Translations under genes and position numbers: made by a program | Notes under the pieces: generated by a model | Seen by the model: only the letters and a program-made list of their open reading frames with translations | Told to the model about the DNA's origin: nothing | Database searches by the model: none | In this document: piece by piece, positions 3,800-54,520 of the stretch | How the letters are laid out: each line of letters starts with the position of its first letter | How positions within the stretch are numbered: position 1 is the stretch's first letter | Origin: Flavobacterium sp. | GTDB lineage: Bacteria; Bacteroidota; Bacteroidia; Flavobacteriales; Flavobacteriaceae | Assembly (NCBI RefSeq): GCF_025352425.1 | Contig: NZ_JANXTI010000031.1 | Coordinates: 1 to 64,000, forward strand | Length of the DNA: 64,000 bases | Reading direction: 5' to 3'

Positions 3800-4723
3800 C
3801 TGAGAAAAATAGCTAAAAAAACATCCCAAAATAATTAATAACAATACGATTTCCTGATACATTTTGTTTTGGGAAGATTCAATGTTTATGGTACACATTA
3901 CTGCTAATGGCATAAAAGTAAAAATCAACATGTCATTGTTTTTCTCAGGCGAAATCAGAAATATTGTTACTCCGATTATAACTCCGAAAATCATTTTTTT
4001 ATAAGAAGCTTGTAAAATCAAAGGTTTGTTGGTCAGGGAAAAAATCAATGATGACAGAAAATATAAGGCAATAACAACAAAAAATGAAAGAGCAATATTT
4101 TGATAATTATTGCTAAAATAATCCAATTCAAAATTAGTTTGGGTTTGATTTAAAATGTGGGTTATCCATGTTTGATCAAATGCTAAAGCACCAACCATAA
4201 ATATAATCGCGGTTGCAAAAAAAGCTAAAAATGGCAAAAGCCAGTTCCTGTAATCTCTTGAAACGTGAAAAATAATGGAGATATATACCAATAAAATAAA
4301 GAGAATGCACCAAAAATGAAATAAGCTGGCTATGAAAATCCACATCGAAGCATCGAAAATCTTTTCTTTTGGCGCTTTTAACGTTTGCAGTGAAATCATT
4401 CTTCGGATAGCCAGGAGAAGAAAAAAATTGGCAAACAATAAATTAGAATTATTAAAAACAGCCGGAAAAATGAGCAGAAACAATAAGAAAAATAAAATAG
4501 TATAACTGCTATTTCTCGTAAGGTTGTTCTTTTTTACCGTAAAGTTTACCAGGAAAAAGGAAGCCAATAATAGCAAAACAAGAGCTGCCGTTTTATAAAA
4601 TCCATTGGAAAAAATCGTTGTAAGCAAATCACTTGATTGATACATAAAAAAGAAAAGAAGCAGCAGAACGACCACCAAAGCATTATTAAGCAATGTAGAT
4701 TTTTTAAAAACGCTTGTTATCAT
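3794..4723 (-). CDS. multi-pass membrane protein, DUF6427 type
   Basis: A 309-residue protein made almost entirely of hydrophobic segments (about eight to nine predicted helices from residue 15 on). I recognise it as resembling the flavobacterial DUF6427 family, of unknown function. Its neighbours upp, a DUF6341-type small protein and purD form an arrangement I recall as common in flavobacteria. Its start codon lies inside the divergent promoter of the DUF6341-type gene. Its 3' end overlaps upp by 6 bp. No catalytic motif is visible. Confidence 0.75.
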   Translation of the reverse strand: MITSVFKKSTLLNNALVVVLLLLFFFMYQSSDLLTTIFSNGFYKTAALVLLLLASFFLVNFTVKKNNLTRNSSYTILFFLLFLLIFPAVFNNSNLLFANFFLLLAIRRMISLQTLKAPKEKIFDASMWIFIASLFHFWCILFILLVYISIIFHVSRDYRNWLLPFLAFFATAIIFMVGALAFDQTWITHILNQTQTNFELDYFSNNYQNIALSFFVVIALYFLSSLIFSLTNKPLILQASYKKMIFGVIIGVTIFLISPEKNNDMLIFTFMPLAVMCTINIESSQNKMYQEIVLLLIILGCFFSYFSQL

Positions 4724-4768: not shown

Positions 4769-4999
4769 ATGAGAGCATTTTTTGAAGGTATTCAATCTTT
4801 ATTTGTAGATTTTTTATTCAAACCACTTGATTTTTTGCGTTCTTTAGAGTTAAGCAGTTGGTGGTTGGCTAACCTTGTTAGCTGGATTATGATAATAATT
4901 TGTGGATATTACATTGTTTACTGGTGTAAACAATTAACCATCCACCGCGCTAACAATGAAGAAAACCAGGATACCACGGCCCATTCTTTCTTAAAGTAA
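4769..4999 (+). CDS. small membrane protein, DUF6341 type
   Basis: A 76-residue protein starting MRAFFEGIQSLFVDFLF. One strong transmembrane helix (about residues 34-53, LANLVSWIMIIICGYYIVYW) is followed by a short polar tail. It resembles the small flavobacterial DUF6341 family of unknown function. The start is fixed by the promoter at 4714-4743. Its last codons overlap the 3' end of purD (convergent) by 9 bp. Conserved position beside the DUF6427-type gene hints at a shared membrane role, but there is no direct evidence. Confidence 0.75.
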   Translation: MRAFFEGIQSLFVDFLFKPLDFLRSLELSSWWLANLVSWIMIIICGYYIVYWCKQLTIHRANNEENQDTTAHSFLK

Positions 5000-6265
5000 G
5001 TCGAATCCAATATCTTTTCTAAAATACATCTTATCAAAATGCAGCTTGACTATATTTTGGTAAGATTTTTTTATGGCTTCTTGGAAGTCATCGCCAAACG
5101 AAGTGATTGCTAAAACTCTTCCGCCATTGGTTATTACTTTCCCATTTTCTATTGTTGTTCCTGCATGGAAAACAAGAGAATTTTCAATATTGTCCAGTCC
5201 TGAAATTTCGTAGCCTTTTCCATAATCTTCAGGATAACCACCGGAAACTATCATAACTGTGGTAGCGCTTCTTTCATCAATTTCCAACGACATTTCATCT
5301 AATTTCTCATTGCTTACAGCCTGAAATAATTCCACTAAATCAGATTTTATTCTCGGAATTACAACTTCCGTTTCGGGATCACCCATTCTAACGTTGTATT
5401 CAATTACTATTGGTTCCCCATTAACAATGATTAATCCAATAAAAACAAAACCTTTATATTCAATTCCGTCTTTCTGTAAACCCTGAATGGTTGGTTTTAC
5501 AATTCGGGTTTCAATTTTTTCCAACAAAACAGCATCTGCAAATGGAACTGGAGAAATTGCTCCCATACCACCGGTATTTAAACCCGTGTCTCCTTCACCA
5601 ATTCGTTTATAATCTTTAGCCGTTGGCAGAATTTTGTAATTTTTACCGTCTGTCAATACAAAACAACTTAATTCAATTCCGTCCAGAAATTCTTCAATAA
5701 CTACTTTGCCACTTGCATTGCCAAATTTTGCATGAACCAACATATTTCGTAATTCTGTTTTCGCTTCTTCTAAATCGTGAAGAATTAAGACGCCCTTTCC
5801 GGCGGCTAAACCATCCGCTTTTAATACATAGGGCGGGTGTAGGGTTTCTAAAAATTCGCATCCTTTTTCAATAGTTGCTGCCGTAAAACTATCATACGCT
5901 GCGGTTGGGATTTCATGTTTTACCAAAAATTCTTTGGCAAACTCTTTACTTCCTTCCAATTGAGCGCCAACTTTTGATGGTCCAATAACCGAAATATGAT
6001 GTAATGCAGAATCATTTTTAAAGAAATCATAAATTCCTGACACTAATGGATCTTCAGGGCCAACGACAACCATTTCAACTTTTTCCACAATGGCAAATGA
6101 TTTTAAAGCCGTAAAATCGGTCGGAGTGATGGAAATGTTAGTTGCTATTGCGGATGTTCCGGCGTTTCCTGGCGCTACAAAAAGTGTTGAACATTTTGAA
6201 CTTTGAAGGATTTTATATGCTAAAGCATGTTCTCTTCCGCCGGAGCCAAGTAGTAAGATGACCAT
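4991..6265 (-). CDS. purD: phosphoribosylamine-glycine ligase
   Basis: A 424-residue ATP-grasp enzyme of de novo purine synthesis, making GAR from phosphoribosylamine, glycine and ATP. Diagnostic segments are GSGGREHALA at the N terminus, GPEDPLVSGI, LKADGLAAGKGV (ATP-grasp), NTGGMGAISP and YNVRMGDPETEVV. The full domain set and normal length are present. A minus-strand TATTTTTG box at 6283-6290 gives a short leader. No other purine genes are in the window, so it stands alone here. Confidence 0.95.
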   Translation of the reverse strand: MVILLLGSGGREHALAYKILQSSKCSTLFVAPGNAGTSAIATNISITPTDFTALKSFAIVEKVEMVVVGPEDPLVSGIYDFFKNDSALHHISVIGPSKVGAQLEGSKEFAKEFLVKHEIPTAAYDSFTAATIEKGCEFLETLHPPYVLKADGLAAGKGVLILHDLEEAKTELRNMLVHAKFGNASGKVVIEEFLDGIELSCFVLTDGKNYKILPTAKDYKRIGEGDTGLNTGGMGAISPVPFADAVLLEKIETRIVKPTIQGLQKDGIEYKGFVFIGLIIVNGEPIVIEYNVRMGDPETEVVIPRIKSDLVELFQAVSNEKLDEMSLEIDERSATTVMIVSGGYPEDYGKGYEISGLDNIENSLVFHAGTTIENGKVITNGGRVLAITSFGDDFQEAIKKSYQNIVKLHFDKMYFRKDIGFDLL

Positions 6266-45884: not shown

Positions 45885-46949
45885 ATGAAAAAGAACTATT
45901 TAGTTAAAGCTACTTTTTTTGCAGCAATACTTTTTGTATCTACAACAAAATTATATTCTCAAAAATCATTTATTGTAACTAATGACAATGAGAAAATAAT
46001 TGTTGATGATAACTTTTTTGACATTCAGCTTTCGCAGGAGAAAACAGTATATAAAACTCCAAATAATGATAGCAAAGAATTGATAAAATTCAAGAATATC
46101 AATTCGGGTATTTTAGGAGAATACAATATGAAGCGAATGAAACTGGCAGATGAAAAGCATGATGAGCTTTATTTCACCCTTGCTGAGTTAAAAGGAAAAA
46201 AAATGACCGGATACAATAAAATAAATACTACAGCAAACACAGGCCCTAATTTAGATCATGGAGGAGGAGCTATGGTTAAATTCATTTGTTACATATTAGA
46301 TGAAAATGACAAGGTTCTGGAAAAAATGGAGACATCTTCATTGTCAGGAGAGAAATATGAAAAAATTAGAAAAACAACAGAAGATAAAATAACAAGATAC
46401 TTTTCAGATTGTAAAGAAGTGATGGATAGGCTTAATAATGGTCTTGTAAAAAGACAGGAAAACACTAAATATTCAAAAAGCGCTGGTAAGATGTTAGATC
46501 GTTTGGCATCAGTTATGTCAAATATAGATGAGTTTTTTTCAACTCCAATCTATAGTAATTGCGACAAACCAAAACAAGAGAATTTATCAACTCAAACAGA
46601 TGTTGAAGCACCAGTTTCCTTAGCAGAACAAAAGTATTACTTTGGAAAGATTAGCGCCACTCCTATGGGTAGTAACGGAACAAAAATGACAGATTATAGC
46701 TTTAAAGGAACCATAGTCATTAAGGATGGCTCAATCTCTTTCATAACCAAAGATGTTGAAACAAAATATAAAATAATAAGTTATCAGGACGGGATTATTA
46801 AATGTGATGATAATGGTAAAATCCATGCTATTACTATTACAAGCGAAACAGGAAAAAAAGGAAGTTTTGCCTACGACACAAAAATTACCTTTTTGTTAGA
46901 CAAAAAAATGGGAGGTTCAACTTCATATTATTGGTGTAATGAAGAATAA
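45885..46949 (+). CDS. secreted protein of unknown function
   Basis: A 354-residue exported protein with signal peptide MKKNYLVKATFFAAILFVST and cleavage after about YSQ. The mature part is lysine-rich and soluble. I do not recognise a domain. The C-terminal third (about residues 240-350) is beta-rich and compact. It lies 30 bp downstream of the beta-barrel gene and ends in a strong terminator (46955-46987), so it is probably the second gene of a two-gene unit. It is unrelated by eye to the exported protein at 47637-49067, which occupies the matching position before gltX. Confidence 0.7.
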   Translation: MKKNYLVKATFFAAILFVSTTKLYSQKSFIVTNDNEKIIVDDNFFDIQLSQEKTVYKTPNNDSKELIKFKNINSGILGEYNMKRMKLADEKHDELYFTLAELKGKKMTGYNKINTTANTGPNLDHGGGAMVKFICYILDENDKVLEKMETSSLSGEKYEKIRKTTEDKITRYFSDCKEVMDRLNNGLVKRQENTKYSKSAGKMLDRLASVMSNIDEFFSTPIYSNCDKPKQENLSTQTDVEAPVSLAEQKYYFGKISATPMGSNGTKMTDYSFKGTIVIKDGSISFITKDVETKYKIISYQDGIIKCDDNGKIHAITITSETGKKGSFAYDTKITFLLDKKMGGSTSYYWCNEE

Positions 46950-46954
46950 GACAT

Positions 46955-46987
46955 AAAAAAGCCCCGATTTAGTCGGGGCTTTTTTTT
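46955..46987 (+). terminator. terminator after the secreted-protein gene
   Basis: GCCCCGA (46961-46967) pairs with TCGGGGC (46973-46979), flanked by A6 and T8. It is near-identical to the terminator at 49067-49096. Confidence 0.85.
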
Positions 46988-47011
46988 ATAAACAAAGTGG
47001 TTCTTTATTTA

Positions 47012-47347
47012 GTCATTACTCGATAACCAATAAGCGTTACTCAATAACTAATAAGCGCTACTCAGTAACTAATAAACGTTACTCTATAACTAATAAGCAT
47101 TATAGAATAACTAATAAGCGTTACTCAGTAACTAATAAACGTTATCGAATAACCAATAAGCGTTACTCAATAACTAATAAGCGCTACTCAGTAACTAATA
47201 AACGTTATCGAATAACTATTAAACGTTACGGGATAACTAATAAGCGTTACTCTATAACTATTAAATGTAACGGGATAACTATTAAGCGTTATCGAGTAAC
47301 TAAAAAACGTTATCGAATAACTAGTAAACGGTATCAGATAACCAACA
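47012..47347. repeat. 16 tandem copies of a 21-bp noncoding dyad repeat
   Basis: Sixteen units of exactly 21 bp begin at 47012, 47033 and so on to 47327. Each unit is 3 bp (AGC, AAC or similar), a 13-bp dyad of type GTTAC-TCA-GTAAC or GTTAT-CGA-ATAAC, and 5 bp (TAATA or similar). The right half TAAC is kept in all 16 units and GTTA in ten. All six frames contain stops. There is no unique spacer, so it is not CRISPR. It lies between a terminator and a gltX fragment. Confidence 0.9.
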
Positions 47348-47364
47348 AGCAAATGAAGTTGGGT

Positions 47365-47484
47365 TTATAGGCTGCTGATTGCCTTTTCTAAACGTTTAAT
47401 GGTTTCATCCTTCCCAATCAGTTCTACAATATTGAAAAGATGAGGGTCTTTCAGGGCGCCAACCAAGCTCAAACGGAAAGGCTG
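47365..47484 (-). pseudogene. gltX: duplicated 3' end of gltX
   Basis: This 120-bp stretch aligns without gaps to 49095-49214, the last 40 codons of gltX, with about 13 differences by eye (near 89 percent identity). Its frame is open and encodes QPFRLSLVGALKDPHLFNIV and ends LEKAISSL. It has no catalytic part and is not a gene. Its 5' edge abuts the beta-barrel gene fragment at 47485. Confidence 0.9.
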
Positions 47485-47559
47485 AAAGCCTTCAATAACG
47501 GCGATTGCTTCAAAGGAAACCTTTGGACAAATATTGCGCAGGTTATTTTTGATTTGTAA
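47485..47559 (+). pseudogene. duplicated 3' end of the outer-membrane beta-barrel gene
   Basis: The plus strand encodes KAFNNGDCFKGNLW..IAQVIFDL and a stop at 47557-47559. It matches QALNNGDSFKGNLG..NGQVIFNL at the end of the beta-barrel gene (about 45780-45854). It joins the gltX fragment directly, as expected for the junction of a tandem duplication. Confidence 0.85.
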
Positions 47560-47586
47560 CCAATAAGGAAAATACATTAATACTCT

Positions 47587-47594
47587 TATATTTG
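47587..47594 (+). promoter_or_regulatory. TATATTTG promoter box for the gene at 47637
   Basis: TATATTTG lies 42 nt before the ATG. It gives this gene its own promoter just after the duplication scar. Confidence 0.5.
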
Positions 47595-47636
47595 ATGAAT
47601 CCTAATTGAAAATCAATATTTAGAACGAATTAATTT

Positions 47637-49067
47637 ATGAAGAAAATTATAACTATTTGTTTTGCATTTGTTTGCGTGTCTGCAACAGCCCAAATCACAG
47701 TGTATGAGTCAAATTTAGACAAAGTAAAATCTTTAATAAAATATGACTATTTACCATTTAAGAACAGACTTGTAGTTTTAGAAGCTTTCAAAAGAACCTC
47801 CACAGTTAGACCTCCTTTCTATAACGCGATTTCAATAGACGAAAATGGCAAAAGTGAATTAGTAATTGACAACGAAAAATTCAGATATTTTAATTATTCT
47901 TCCAAAAATGACGCCCTAAAGGGTATCTATCAAGATGGATTTGACGCCAAAGAAGGGTTCGTAATTGAAAATTCCAAAAAGCAAATTATAGATAATAAGG
48001 ACTTTATCAATTTTAATCAGTATGATAATTTTTTCGATGATAAATACATCGTTATACTTACTGATGATAAAGGTAAAGGGTCGATAAACATCGAAAAAAA
48101 AGATATCTATCTTACAAAATACGATATAGCCAAAAAGACCATGAATACCGTTGCTCTTGAGAAGGTAGATATTCAGAGATTGCAAACAAAAGATATTAAA
48201 ACTCCAAAAAGAGTATCCTTTAGACCTATTTTTAATACCGATAGTAATATTGAGATTATTACAAAATCAATATCTAAAAATAATAATTCAAGTGTTCTTT
48301 ACAGAACAATTTATGATTTGAACGGAAAGAAAATCAATGACTATGCATATAAGACCACTTTGACAAAAGGGTTTTTATCTTATTTTGCTACATTTTCGAC
48401 TACGCAAAACGAGATAAATGCTCCGGATAATGCTGATACATCTGTAATTCCAACGAAAGATTTAGATTTTAATGAATTCTACGTTGATAACAAAACAAAC
48501 GAGGTTTATGTTTACGGGGTGGAGATGAATTCTAAAAAAGACCCAATCGGTTTCTACATCAACAAATTTTCTAGAGAAGGTAATTTAATTTGGGAGAAGT
48601 TCTATCCAGTAGACGATGATAAGAAAGGCTTTAATGATTTCAAATTGTTATGGAAATTTTCAAGTATTTATCTTTATGAGTTTATGGATGATGATAACGT
48701 TGTCATTTCGATTAGTGGAGAAAAGGGCGGAATGACCGACCTTTACAATCATTTCTTTGTAATCGACAAATCCTCGGGAAAACTAGTGAAAAGATCTTTT
48801 ATGAGCGGCGATTTAAGAACCCGCAAAATGTATGCATATGGTGAGGATATGAATTCGGTTTTTGCTCAAATTAAAATTGGAACTGATAGGTACTGTAGCC
48901 GAAGCACTCTAATCGCCTTGGGCTTAAATCCGAAAGTCGACAAATATGTCAGAGGAGTTGTTAAAAAAGGGGATGTTTTTTTCGATAGTTTTATTACATC
49001 CAAGGGTGTTTGGTTAATGGAGAGCGACGATGCAACGTATTTCAAGGTAACCCTATTTAAGGAATAA
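47637..49067 (+). CDS. secreted protein of unknown function
   Basis: A 476-residue exported protein. MKKIITICFAFVCVSATAQ is the signal peptide. The mature protein has many short beta strands with aromatic and acidic residues and several NGK or DKSSGK turns. This could suggest a propeller-like or beta-rich fold, but no family is recognised. It has its own promoter box and a terminator (49067-49096) almost identical to that of the other secreted-protein gene. It stands between a fragment of the beta-barrel gene and intact gltX. Confidence 0.7.
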   Translation: MKKIITICFAFVCVSATAQITVYESNLDKVKSLIKYDYLPFKNRLVVLEAFKRTSTVRPPFYNAISIDENGKSELVIDNEKFRYFNYSSKNDALKGIYQDGFDAKEGFVIENSKKQIIDNKDFINFNQYDNFFDDKYIVILTDDKGKGSINIEKKDIYLTKYDIAKKTMNTVALEKVDIQRLQTKDIKTPKRVSFRPIFNTDSNIEIITKSISKNNNSSVLYRTIYDLNGKKINDYAYKTTLTKGFLSYFATFSTTQNEINAPDNADTSVIPTKDLDFNEFYVDNKTNEVYVYGVEMNSKKDPIGFYINKFSREGNLIWEKFYPVDDDKKGFNDFKLLWKFSSIYLYEFMDDDNVVISISGEKGGMTDLYNHFFVIDKSSGKLVKRSFMSGDLRTRKMYAYGEDMNSVFAQIKIGTDRYCSRSTLIALGLNPKVDKYVRGVVKKGDVFFDSFITSKGVWLMESDDATYFKVTLFKE

Positions 49068-49096
49068 AAAAGCCCCGATTATTCGGGGCTCTTTTT
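49067..49096. terminator. bidirectional terminator between the secreted-protein gene and gltX
   Basis: GCCCCGA (49072-49078) pairs with TCGGGGC (49083-49089), flanked by A-rich and T-rich arms. It ends at the gltX stop and can serve both genes. Confidence 0.85.
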
Positions 49097-50600
49097 ATAA
49101 AGTATCGATTGCCTTCTCTAAACGTTTAATGGTTTCATCCTTCCCAATCAATTCAACAATATCAAAAAGATGAGGGCCTTTCAGGGCGCCAACCAAGCTC
49201 AAACGGAATGGCTGCATAACTTTTCCCATTCCTATTTCGTTTTGAGTCATCCAGTCTTTTACATTGGTTTCAATATTTGCGGAAGTAAAATCGTCAATAG
49301 TGTCTATGACCAAAATCAATTCACTCATCAATGCGGATGTGTCTTCCTTCCAGTTTTTAGCTGCTTTTTCATCATAGGACGTTGGTGCTTCAAAAAAGAA
49401 ATTGCTCATTTCCCAAAATTCGGAAACAAAATTCGCGCGTTCTTTTATTAGTGAAACAATCTTTGTTATGGTTGTAAAATCGGTATCAATTCCTTTTTCA
49501 TACAGAATTGGAGCAAAACTTTTTGCCAGGCTTTCGTCGTCTTGCTTTTGTAAATATTGATGATTGAACCATTTGTTTTTATCAGGATCAAATTTTGCTC
49601 CAGCTTTATGAACTCTGCTCAAATCAAATTTCTGAACCAATTCTTCCAATGAAAATAATTCCTGGTCAGTTCCGTCATTCCAGCCTAATAGAGCCAAAAA
49701 GTTAATCACTGCTTCCGGAAAAAATCCTTTTTCCCTATAACCTGAAGAAACACCTTCTTCACTTTTCCATTCCAAAGGAAACACCGGAAAACCTAATTTA
49801 TCGCCGTCACGCTTTGATAATTTCCCGTTACCAATAGGTTTCAAAATCAATGGTAAATGAGCAAATTCAGGCGCTTCCCAACCAAATGCTTTATATAATA
49901 ATGAGTGTAGAGGCATCGATGGTAACCATTCTTCACCACGAATTACATGTGAAGTTTCCATCAAATGATCATCAACAATATTCGCCAAATGATACGTTGG
50001 CATTCCATCAGATTTAAATAGCACCTTATCGTCTAACAAATTGGTTTCAAAACTAATATCACCACGAATGATATCATGCAGGTGCAAAGTCTCGTTTACC
50101 GGCGTTTTAAAACGCACTACATAAGTTTCGCCAGCAGCAATTCTTTTTTCTGTTTCTTCTTCAGAAATTACTAAGGAAGTATCCAGTTTTTCACGATTAT
50201 GCCAATTGTAGATGAAAGTCTTTCCTTGTTCTTCGTGTTGTTTTCTTTCTGAATCCAAAGCTTCCGCTGTATCAAATGCATAATATGCCCAACCCGAATT
50301 GATTAGGAGATCAACGTATTTTTTGTACAATTCCTTTCTTTCGGATTGACGGTATGGTCCAAACTTTTCATTCTTTCCGACGGTTTCGCTTGGCGCGATT
50401 CCTAACCATTCCAAAGCTTCGAAAATATAGTGCTCAGCTCCCGGAACAAAGCGGTTTTGGTCAGTATCTTCTATTCTCAGATAAAAGACACCGGTATGTT
50501 TTTTGGCAAATAAATAATTGAATAATGCAGTTCTGACTCCACCAATATGCAAAGGTCCGGTTGGACTTGGTGCAAAACGAACTCTTACAGGTCTTGACAT
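49095..50600 (-). CDS. gltX: glutamate-tRNA ligase
   Basis: A 501-residue class I synthetase. FAPSPTGPLHIGGVRTALFN carries the HIGH-type motif and GKLSKRDGDKLGF the KMSKS-type motif. The anticodon-binding C-terminal helices are complete. It charges tRNA-Glu, and because glnS is also present it is probably discriminating. A minus-strand TATCTTTG box at 50618-50625 drives it. The last 120 bp exist in a second diverged copy at 47365-47484. Confidence 0.96.
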   Translation of the reverse strand: MSRPVRVRFAPSPTGPLHIGGVRTALFNYLFAKKHTGVFYLRIEDTDQNRFVPGAEHYIFEALEWLGIAPSETVGKNEKFGPYRQSERKELYKKYVDLLINSGWAYYAFDTAEALDSERKQHEEQGKTFIYNWHNREKLDTSLVISEEETEKRIAAGETYVVRFKTPVNETLHLHDIIRGDISFETNLLDDKVLFKSDGMPTYHLANIVDDHLMETSHVIRGEEWLPSMPLHSLLYKAFGWEAPEFAHLPLILKPIGNGKLSKRDGDKLGFPVFPLEWKSEEGVSSGYREKGFFPEAVINFLALLGWNDGTDQELFSLEELVQKFDLSRVHKAGAKFDPDKNKWFNHQYLQKQDDESLAKSFAPILYEKGIDTDFTTITKIVSLIKERANFVSEFWEMSNFFFEAPTSYDEKAAKNWKEDTSALMSELILVIDTIDDFTSANIETNVKDWMTQNEIGMGKVMQPFRLSLVGALKGPHLFDIVELIGKDETIKRLEKAIDTL

Positions 50601-54105: not shown

Positions 54106-54520
54106 TTTTAATTACGAGTTAGACTTCAAACTAGCAGATGAAACCGCATATTCAGACTGGCTTTCCAAAGTAATCAGTTCTGAAGTAAAGATGGAAGGAG
54201 AGATTAATTATATCTTCTGTGACGATGATTATTTGTTGGAAATTAACCAACAATACTTAGGTCACGACACCTTGACAGACATCATTAGCTTTGATTATTC
54301 CATAGGAAACGAGCTACATGGAGATATTTTTATTTCTATCGAAAGAGTACGTGAAAACACTATTGATTTCAATGTTGATTTTGAAGACGAACTAAAACGT
54401 GTAATTGTACACGGAGTTTTACACTATTGTGGTTACAAAGATAAAAGCGAGGAAGACGAAAAACTTATGCGTCAAAAGGAAGAAGAAAAAATGAGTATGT
54501 TCCACGTGAAACAAAATTAA
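54098..54520 (+). CDS. ybeY: rRNA maturation endoribonuclease YbeY
   Basis: A 140-residue zinc-dependent RNase for 16S rRNA 3'-end maturation. The motif HGVLHYCGYKD corresponds to H-x3-H-x5-H, but the third histidine is aspartate here. I believe this also occurs in other Bacteroidota homologs, but did not check. DTLTDIISFDY is the other family signature. The last residues MFHVKQ are encoded by a parS-type site (54498-54513), so the C terminus is shaped by that DNA element. It overlaps DUF4175 by 8 bp and stops 1 bp before mnmG. Confidence 0.93.
   Translation: MISFNYELDFKLADETAYSDWLSKVISSEVKMEGEINYIFCDDDYLLEINQQYLGHDTLTDIISFDYSIGNELHGDIFISIERVRENTIDFNVDFEDELKRVIVHGVLHYCGYKDKSEEDEKLMRQKEEEKMSMFHVKQN
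54498..54513. other. parS-type ParB-binding site 1
   Basis: TGTTCCACGTGAAACA matches all 16 positions of the known chromosomal parS consensus TGTTNCACGTGAAACA. It overlaps the 3' end of ybeY. Confidence 0.88.

Follow-up and report, generated by a model that had tools for sequence, protein, structure and literature searches.

The intergenic array of 21-bp units in this Flavobacterium DNA raises the question of whether its period of two helical turns and the dyads in its units mark a row of protein-binding sites, or whether it is a passive minisatellite. The window analysed here, that is, the whole stretch of 64,000 nucleotides, belongs to a contig of 181,504 bases in a genome of 2.72 Mb. The gene names used (gltX, glnS, ybeY and mnmG) are presumptive, save where a family search backs them. 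Overall, we consider it likely, with real room for doubt, that the array is a non-coding, passive minisatellite that grew in a neutral pocket; 20 arrays of 21 bp, this one included, occur in the sampled 56% of the genome.

Architecture of the array and its surroundings

Tandem repetition in the array is certainly beyond chance. The repeat itself comprises two features:

47014–47349, unstranded: tandem array of 16 strictly 21-bp units, with CGTTACTCAATAACTAATAAG as the majority unit
47023–47081, unstranded: 59-bp block with an exact copy at +126 bp (47149–47207), a trace of multi-unit duplication

The initial annotation had described sixteen strictly 21-bp units, arranged head to tail without spacers around an invariant TAAC half-site, and this description was borne out. 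By column counts, TAAC occupies the identical position in each of the 16 units, its starts running from 47024 to 47339 at intervals of 21 with no net indel, and TRF called the array at 47016–47350 with 16.0 copies, reporting a 63-bp period as well. The units abut, and the unique spacers between repeats by which a CRISPR is recognised are thus absent. Identity within the array was 0.80 at lag 63 versus 0.76 at lag 21, 0.45 and 0.46 at lags 7 and 14, and at most 0.35 at the remaining lags below 21. Divergence from the majority unit is among the highest in the last four units (6, 6, 5 and 7 differences), with 5 differences in unit 10 as well. The higher identity at lag 63 than at lag 21, the exact 59-bp copy and the diverged last units together argue for multi-unit slippage or unequal exchange. 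A three-fold heptad would probably have given the original 21-mer (lag-7 identity 0.45), and growth between the terminator and the recombination scar may have proceeded by replication slippage or by unequal recombination involving blocks of several units.

These flanking elements, between which the array had been placed at the outset, were both found. The features on either side are:

45885–46949, + strand: upstream gene (354 aa), without a match in Pfam or NCBIfam
46955–46985, unstranded: intrinsic terminator after the 354-aa gene
47364–47484, − strand: duplicated 3' end of gltX, 121 bp, 89% to 49094–49214, a recombination scar bordering the array
47637–49067, + strand: downstream gene (476 aa) between the scar and intact gltX, likewise without a match in Pfam or NCBIfam
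49058–49099: second similar terminator, that of the 476-aa gene
49095–50600, − strand: intact gltX

The terminators of the 354-aa and 476-aa genes resemble each other (87% over 44 bp; 74% ungapped), and the translation of the scar matches gltX_bact weakly. Taken together, the duplicated gltX 3' end and the similar terminators are likely to reflect insertion of a cassette at the gltX 3' end; the scar would mark insertion or recombination in a variable pocket. Among the nearest neighbours scanned, the 231-, 354- and 476-aa products have no family in Pfam or NCBIfam, the gene that follows is Band_7, and no known replication initiator family was found; the 476-aa product has a 37% relative elsewhere in the genome. 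In many of 20 relatives gltX adjoins a gene resembling the one for the 231-aa product; for the 354-aa and 476-aa genes, only distant counterparts (24% in L098 and L108; 26% in L093) or none exist at the locus. An array that sits in such a variable pocket needs no function.

Two landmarks lie further away. A parS had been noted near the array, and a parS-like site is indeed present at 54498–54513 (1 mismatch, 0.03 expected); this word lies at the end of ybeY and occurs once in the window, outside the array. The GC skew, in 4-kb bins, flips from negative to positive near 36 kb of the window.

A class of 21-bp arrays in the genome

Tandem arrays were censused with TRF in 100 further stretches of the host genome plus the window, 1,531,501 bases in all or 56% of the genome. 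Within this sample, 22 arrays had a period of 15–30 and at least 3 copies; 20 of them were exactly 21 bp, one was 20 and one 22. The density of 21-bp arrays is about 13 per Mb, and the window array is the longest seen in the sampled genome. The 20 arrays fall into 14 sequence groups, with seven related pairs (blastn E of 0.01 or less), the strongest joining L151 1205 and L178 18863 at 82% over 155 bases. The notion that all arrays are unrelated is thus untenable, and none of the pairs involves the window array, which has no relative among the other 19 at the same threshold and stands alone in its group. The 5- to 7-mers common to the array units were within the range reached by shuffles. According to a crude ORF-calling script, 12 of the 20 arrays overlap no ORF of at least 80 codons, and the other eight overlap TTG-started ORFs of 84–166 codons that look spurious.

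Heptads as the origin of 21 bp throughout the class were rejected (combined p of 0.75 over 19 arrays). Only two of the 20 arrays rank lag 7 first, and 7-bp structure is seen in the window array (column-permutation p = 0.025) and in one more of the 20, the latter by rank only. AATTACG heptamer arrays also occur in the host (for example C68:39929–39963 and C80:10177–10204); a three-unit scan with at most 1 mismatch gave 24 overlapping host matches versus 0 for the reversed control, and such matches are present in 8 of 61 genus genomes, host included.

What could hold so many sequences to one length? A class-wide architectural role would have nucleoid or other proteins polymerise on two-helical-turn repeats of any sequence, with the genome keeping the arrays. 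That a length of exactly 21 bp is kept by 20 arrays from 14 sequence groups favours this proposal, and the authors of PMC8161180 put it forward for repeats of the same kind, as proteins polymerising on repeats of two helical turns. Against it, indels relative to substitutions are as frequent in the arrays as in a dispersed 130-bp repeat: 20 per 443 in the 20 arrays versus 11 per 194 in the dispersed repeat (Fisher p = 0.55). Eight of these 20 indels were introduced by the aligner as compensating pairs within the window array, whose net indel count is zero. A laxer gap penalty gave 44 indels per 407 substitutions, the window array then containing only compensating +1/−1 pairs. With an indel share not different from that of the dispersed repeat, no selection on length is seen beyond the control, and selection on length was dropped. 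The surroundings of gltX in 20 relatives also count against an architectural role, as given below, and we regard it as unlikely. Similarly unlikely, in our estimate, is the broader idea that a length-measuring process, either enzymatic or a polymerising DNA-binding protein, makes or keeps the arrays at 21 bp whatever their sequence, with 7 or 13–14 bp seen in the relatives sampled; the weak quasi-palindromes of several arrays (combined p of 0.0034 in one of four dyad tests) would be part of the measure.

The dispersed repeat lies between small genes, with 13 matches in 6 loci (L151, L118, L157, L176, L178 and L184); those in L151 (host contig C23) are at 999–1123, 1495–1660, 4225–4352 and 4976–5109. 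It folds as a long imperfect hairpin (z of −2.5 as DNA), and one gene among the repeats follows a DUF805 RNA motif. From their appearance, we take these loci to resemble a gene-cassette array with attC-like sites; an integron integrase model gave nothing over its cut-off in the host, and below-cut-off matches in all 14 control genomes. Three contigs that carry the dispersed repeat (L151, L176 and L178) account for seven of the 20 arrays.

The passive minisatellite, offered as a fallback in the initial annotation, is the best-supported reading: the array keeps a strict 21-bp register, it belongs to a period-locked class, it retains a block duplication, and no array lies behind gltX in the relatives sampled. 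On this reading the period would be set by how arrays arise and not by a bound protein, and the array would have no selected function. Counting against it are a class-wide dyad p of 0.0034, a folding that beats most column permutations and a synonymous share of 0.47 (all treated below), as does the lock on 21 bp across 14 groups, for which a neutral cause is only presumed. The array alone is ordinary; the point of interest is the 21-bp lock.

Relatives and other genomes

A scan of 3 kb behind gltX turned up no array of 3 or more copies in any of 20 relatives; it covered the full 3 kb in 18 of them, with L090 and L092 showing 210 and 128 bases only. In 365,388 bases around gltX of the 20 relatives there was no non-coding 21-bp array with 3 copies, and periods of 7 (7 arrays), 13 (5) and 14 (4) prevail. 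This contrast in period between the host and its relatives, the latter sampled in one region only, is suggestive, and it opens the way to a comparative test of how the period is set.

In the gap between ybeY and mnmG, 13–14-bp arrays were observed in L101 (4660–4848), L102 (15258–15370), L103 (14686–14945) and L104 (4649–4917), that is, in 4 of 18 relatives whose stretch holds both genes; the unit sequences differ. L105 has an array at its contig end (1–156). The host ybeY and mnmG ORFs are 1 base apart. The same place with a changing unit shows rapid turnover of tandem arrays in this gap.

The DNA of the window array had no match in 59 other genomes. Occurrence of the same dyad in relatives was not supported: three dyads in register, allowing at most 3 mismatches, were found in 26 of 299 genus genomes, compared with about 47 for the reversed control. 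Five genomes, including the host, have at least 10 such matches, and the control has one with 9. An exact two-dyad scan of named genomes, run without a control, gave 67 stretches, and in 21 of them the match coincides with a period-21 array of 3 or more copies; among these, as far as the matches listed go (20 of 67), are Flavobacterium amniphilum, with a 13-copy array of 21 bp in L245, Emticicia, other Bacteroidota, Cyanobacteria and SAR324. An array in another genome of the genus, G209, is identical to one in the F. amniphilum record. Weak matches occurred in four plasmid records, the best from Borreliella lusitaniae (56% covered, 67.5%, E of 0.002), and none of the plasmid records covered 80% of the array; a single weak match was found in phages.

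The dyad

One of the units that carry the dyad in full is:

47120–47132, unstranded: unit with full dyad GTTACTCAGTAAC, 5-bp arms, 3-bp loop

Two statements about it proved too strong. Not every unit carries the 13-bp dyad: perfect 5-bp arms are present in 4 of 16 units and perfect 4-bp arms in 10 of 16. Nor do the central bases covary, as had been proposed, the pairs at positions 6 and 10 being C-A in 7 units, T-A in 5, C-G in 3 and T-G in 1 (Fisher p = 1.0).

A locus-specific operator row would require a dimeric regulator that binds GTTAY-NNN-RTAAC dyads, the array acting as a sponge or a phased operator. Permutation of the 21 columns, which keeps composition and relatedness, speaks for it, the best dyad pairing being reached by 8 of 500 permutations and its location thus beating 492 (p = 0.025 with 200 permutations). 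The array also contains 10 exact sites of GTTAYNNNRTAAC in 336 bp, where 0.25 would be expected in the whole 64-kb window, although tandem copying of one site would yield an equal count. The whole genome has 24 places matching this wider form, so that 14 lie outside the array, compared with 30 for the reversed control. For the narrower dyad GTTACNNNGTAAC there are 4 places in the genome, one of them inside the array, versus 1 for the control; with the narrow form GTTAC-NNN-GTAAC thus at 3 places outside the array versus 1 in the control, the numbers are too few to tell. Against an operator row stand, besides the lack of covariation and the 14 places against 30, a conservation of the arms no higher than that of the linker (0.90 vs 0.87, p = 0.64) and a dyad that is ordinary among 4,000 intergenic 21-mers of the host genome (p = 0.53). 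Two tests with a shuffled consensus gave p values of 0.79 and 0.56. We consider an operator row very unlikely.

Over the class, the combined dyad p was 0.21 (20 arrays), 0.0034 (19 arrays), and 0.09 and 0.52 (20 arrays), all of these values being too sharp on account of the related arrays within the class. In the test that gave 0.0034, five of 19 arrays had a p of about 0.05 or less, including the window array (p = 0.025). The dyad as a selected site was rejected as the main reading: column permutations, and marginally folding, favour it, the other tests do not. It is doubtful that the dyad is beyond chance, and it is probably incidental. Phased protein sites of the iteron or centromere kind find no support, the dyad being at intergenic background and no commoner outside the array than the reversed control; the idea is weakened further by the lack of a match among the other 19 arrays and of an array behind gltX in 20 relatives. 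Of the proposed phase of two helical turns, the 21-bp period is real, but it is common to 20 arrays in 14 sequence groups and for that reason is no evidence for the dyad. More generally, a dyad or a helical phase in a single array of this type is weak evidence for a binding site.

Open frame and folding

The array had been said to have stops in all frames, which is not the case, since the forward frame from 47014 is open through all 16 units (112 codons, 0 stops):

46957–47370, + strand: stop-free frame through the array, heptapeptide of the R-Y-S-I-T-N-K type, probably not a gene

The frame ends with a TAG at 47368–47370, and the preceding in-frame stop is at 46954; read by eye, there is no ATG, GTG or TTG start between that stop and the array. 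As a relic of a coding repeat, the frame would formerly have encoded the tail of a heptapeptide-repeat protein, and the uninterrupted 16 units agree with this, as does a synonymous share of codon differences of 0.47 (versus 0.13 and 0.12). Once all frames are allowed for, however, the synonymous excess has a p of 0.066; the frame lacks a usual start codon and comes directly after a terminator, and a 21-bp unit would easily leave some frame open. Of 19 arrays tested, one had p < 0.05, giving no class-wide coding signal. The coding repeat was dropped on the p of 0.066 and the missing start codon, and we find such a relic most improbable.

Equally hard to credit is an RNA or single-stranded DNA element in which neighbouring quasi-palindromic units pair into stems whose loops span 8 bases, and so yield a processed RNA or act as an additional terminator: the array folds well against dinucleotide shuffles (z = −4.65 on the + strand, −6.87 on the − strand) and has one terminator-like site inside it on the − strand, but such shuffles destroy its repetition, the excess is marginal against column-permuted arrays (4 of 100 and 7 of 100 fold equally well), and Rfam gave no family at gathering score over 46900–47700.

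Comparison with known systems

Iterons of plasmid origins are also short direct repeats with a spacing of roughly two helical turns. Unlike these, the array lies on a contig of 181,504 bases that carries gltX, with no initiator family among the scanned neighbours.

Heptamer repeats of TAACTGA have been described in Beggiatoaceae, Cyanobacteria and five Bacteroidetes by MacGregor (PMC4679880). As with these, the array is intergenic, occurs in Bacteroidetes and keeps a 7-bp structure (lag 7 = 0.45); it differs in having a 21-bp unit, and only 2 of the 20 host arrays rank lag 7 first. TAACTGA itself is absent from both strands of the array. Within Flavobacterium, a study of F. psychrophilum that chose units of 4–10 nt (PMC4501049) lists intergenic VNTR loci, and of six units considered in full, five are 7 nt and the sixth is 8 nt; the array is likewise intergenic with residual 7-bp structure but has a unit of 21 bp. 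A 69-nt family is also listed for F. psychrophilum in PMC6749651. Among the titles and abstracts of the open-licence papers surveyed, none dealt with 21-bp arrays in Flavobacterium.

The closest counterparts are the 20–21-nt repeats of Subirana and Messeguer (PMC8161180), which have a constant size and a variable sequence, are generally non-coding, and are found in Bacillus and said to be present in many other groups; the authors point to two helical turns and leave the function open. The host arrays resemble this class in a period common to several arrays of one genome (20 of 21 bp), in a sequence that varies between arrays (14 groups) and in a short invariant stretch in the repeat, which in the host is the TAAC of 16 of 16 units in the window array only. 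The published class is mostly non-coding; of the 20 host arrays, 12 are clear of ORFs of that length and eight fall in the TTG-started ORFs of 84–166 codons, with no class-wide synonymous excess. Unlike the Bacillus repeats described there, those of the host occur in Flavobacterium and are locked at exactly 21. The 21-bp class thus extends to Flavobacterium a published puzzle, that of bacterial repeats with a fixed size and a free sequence.
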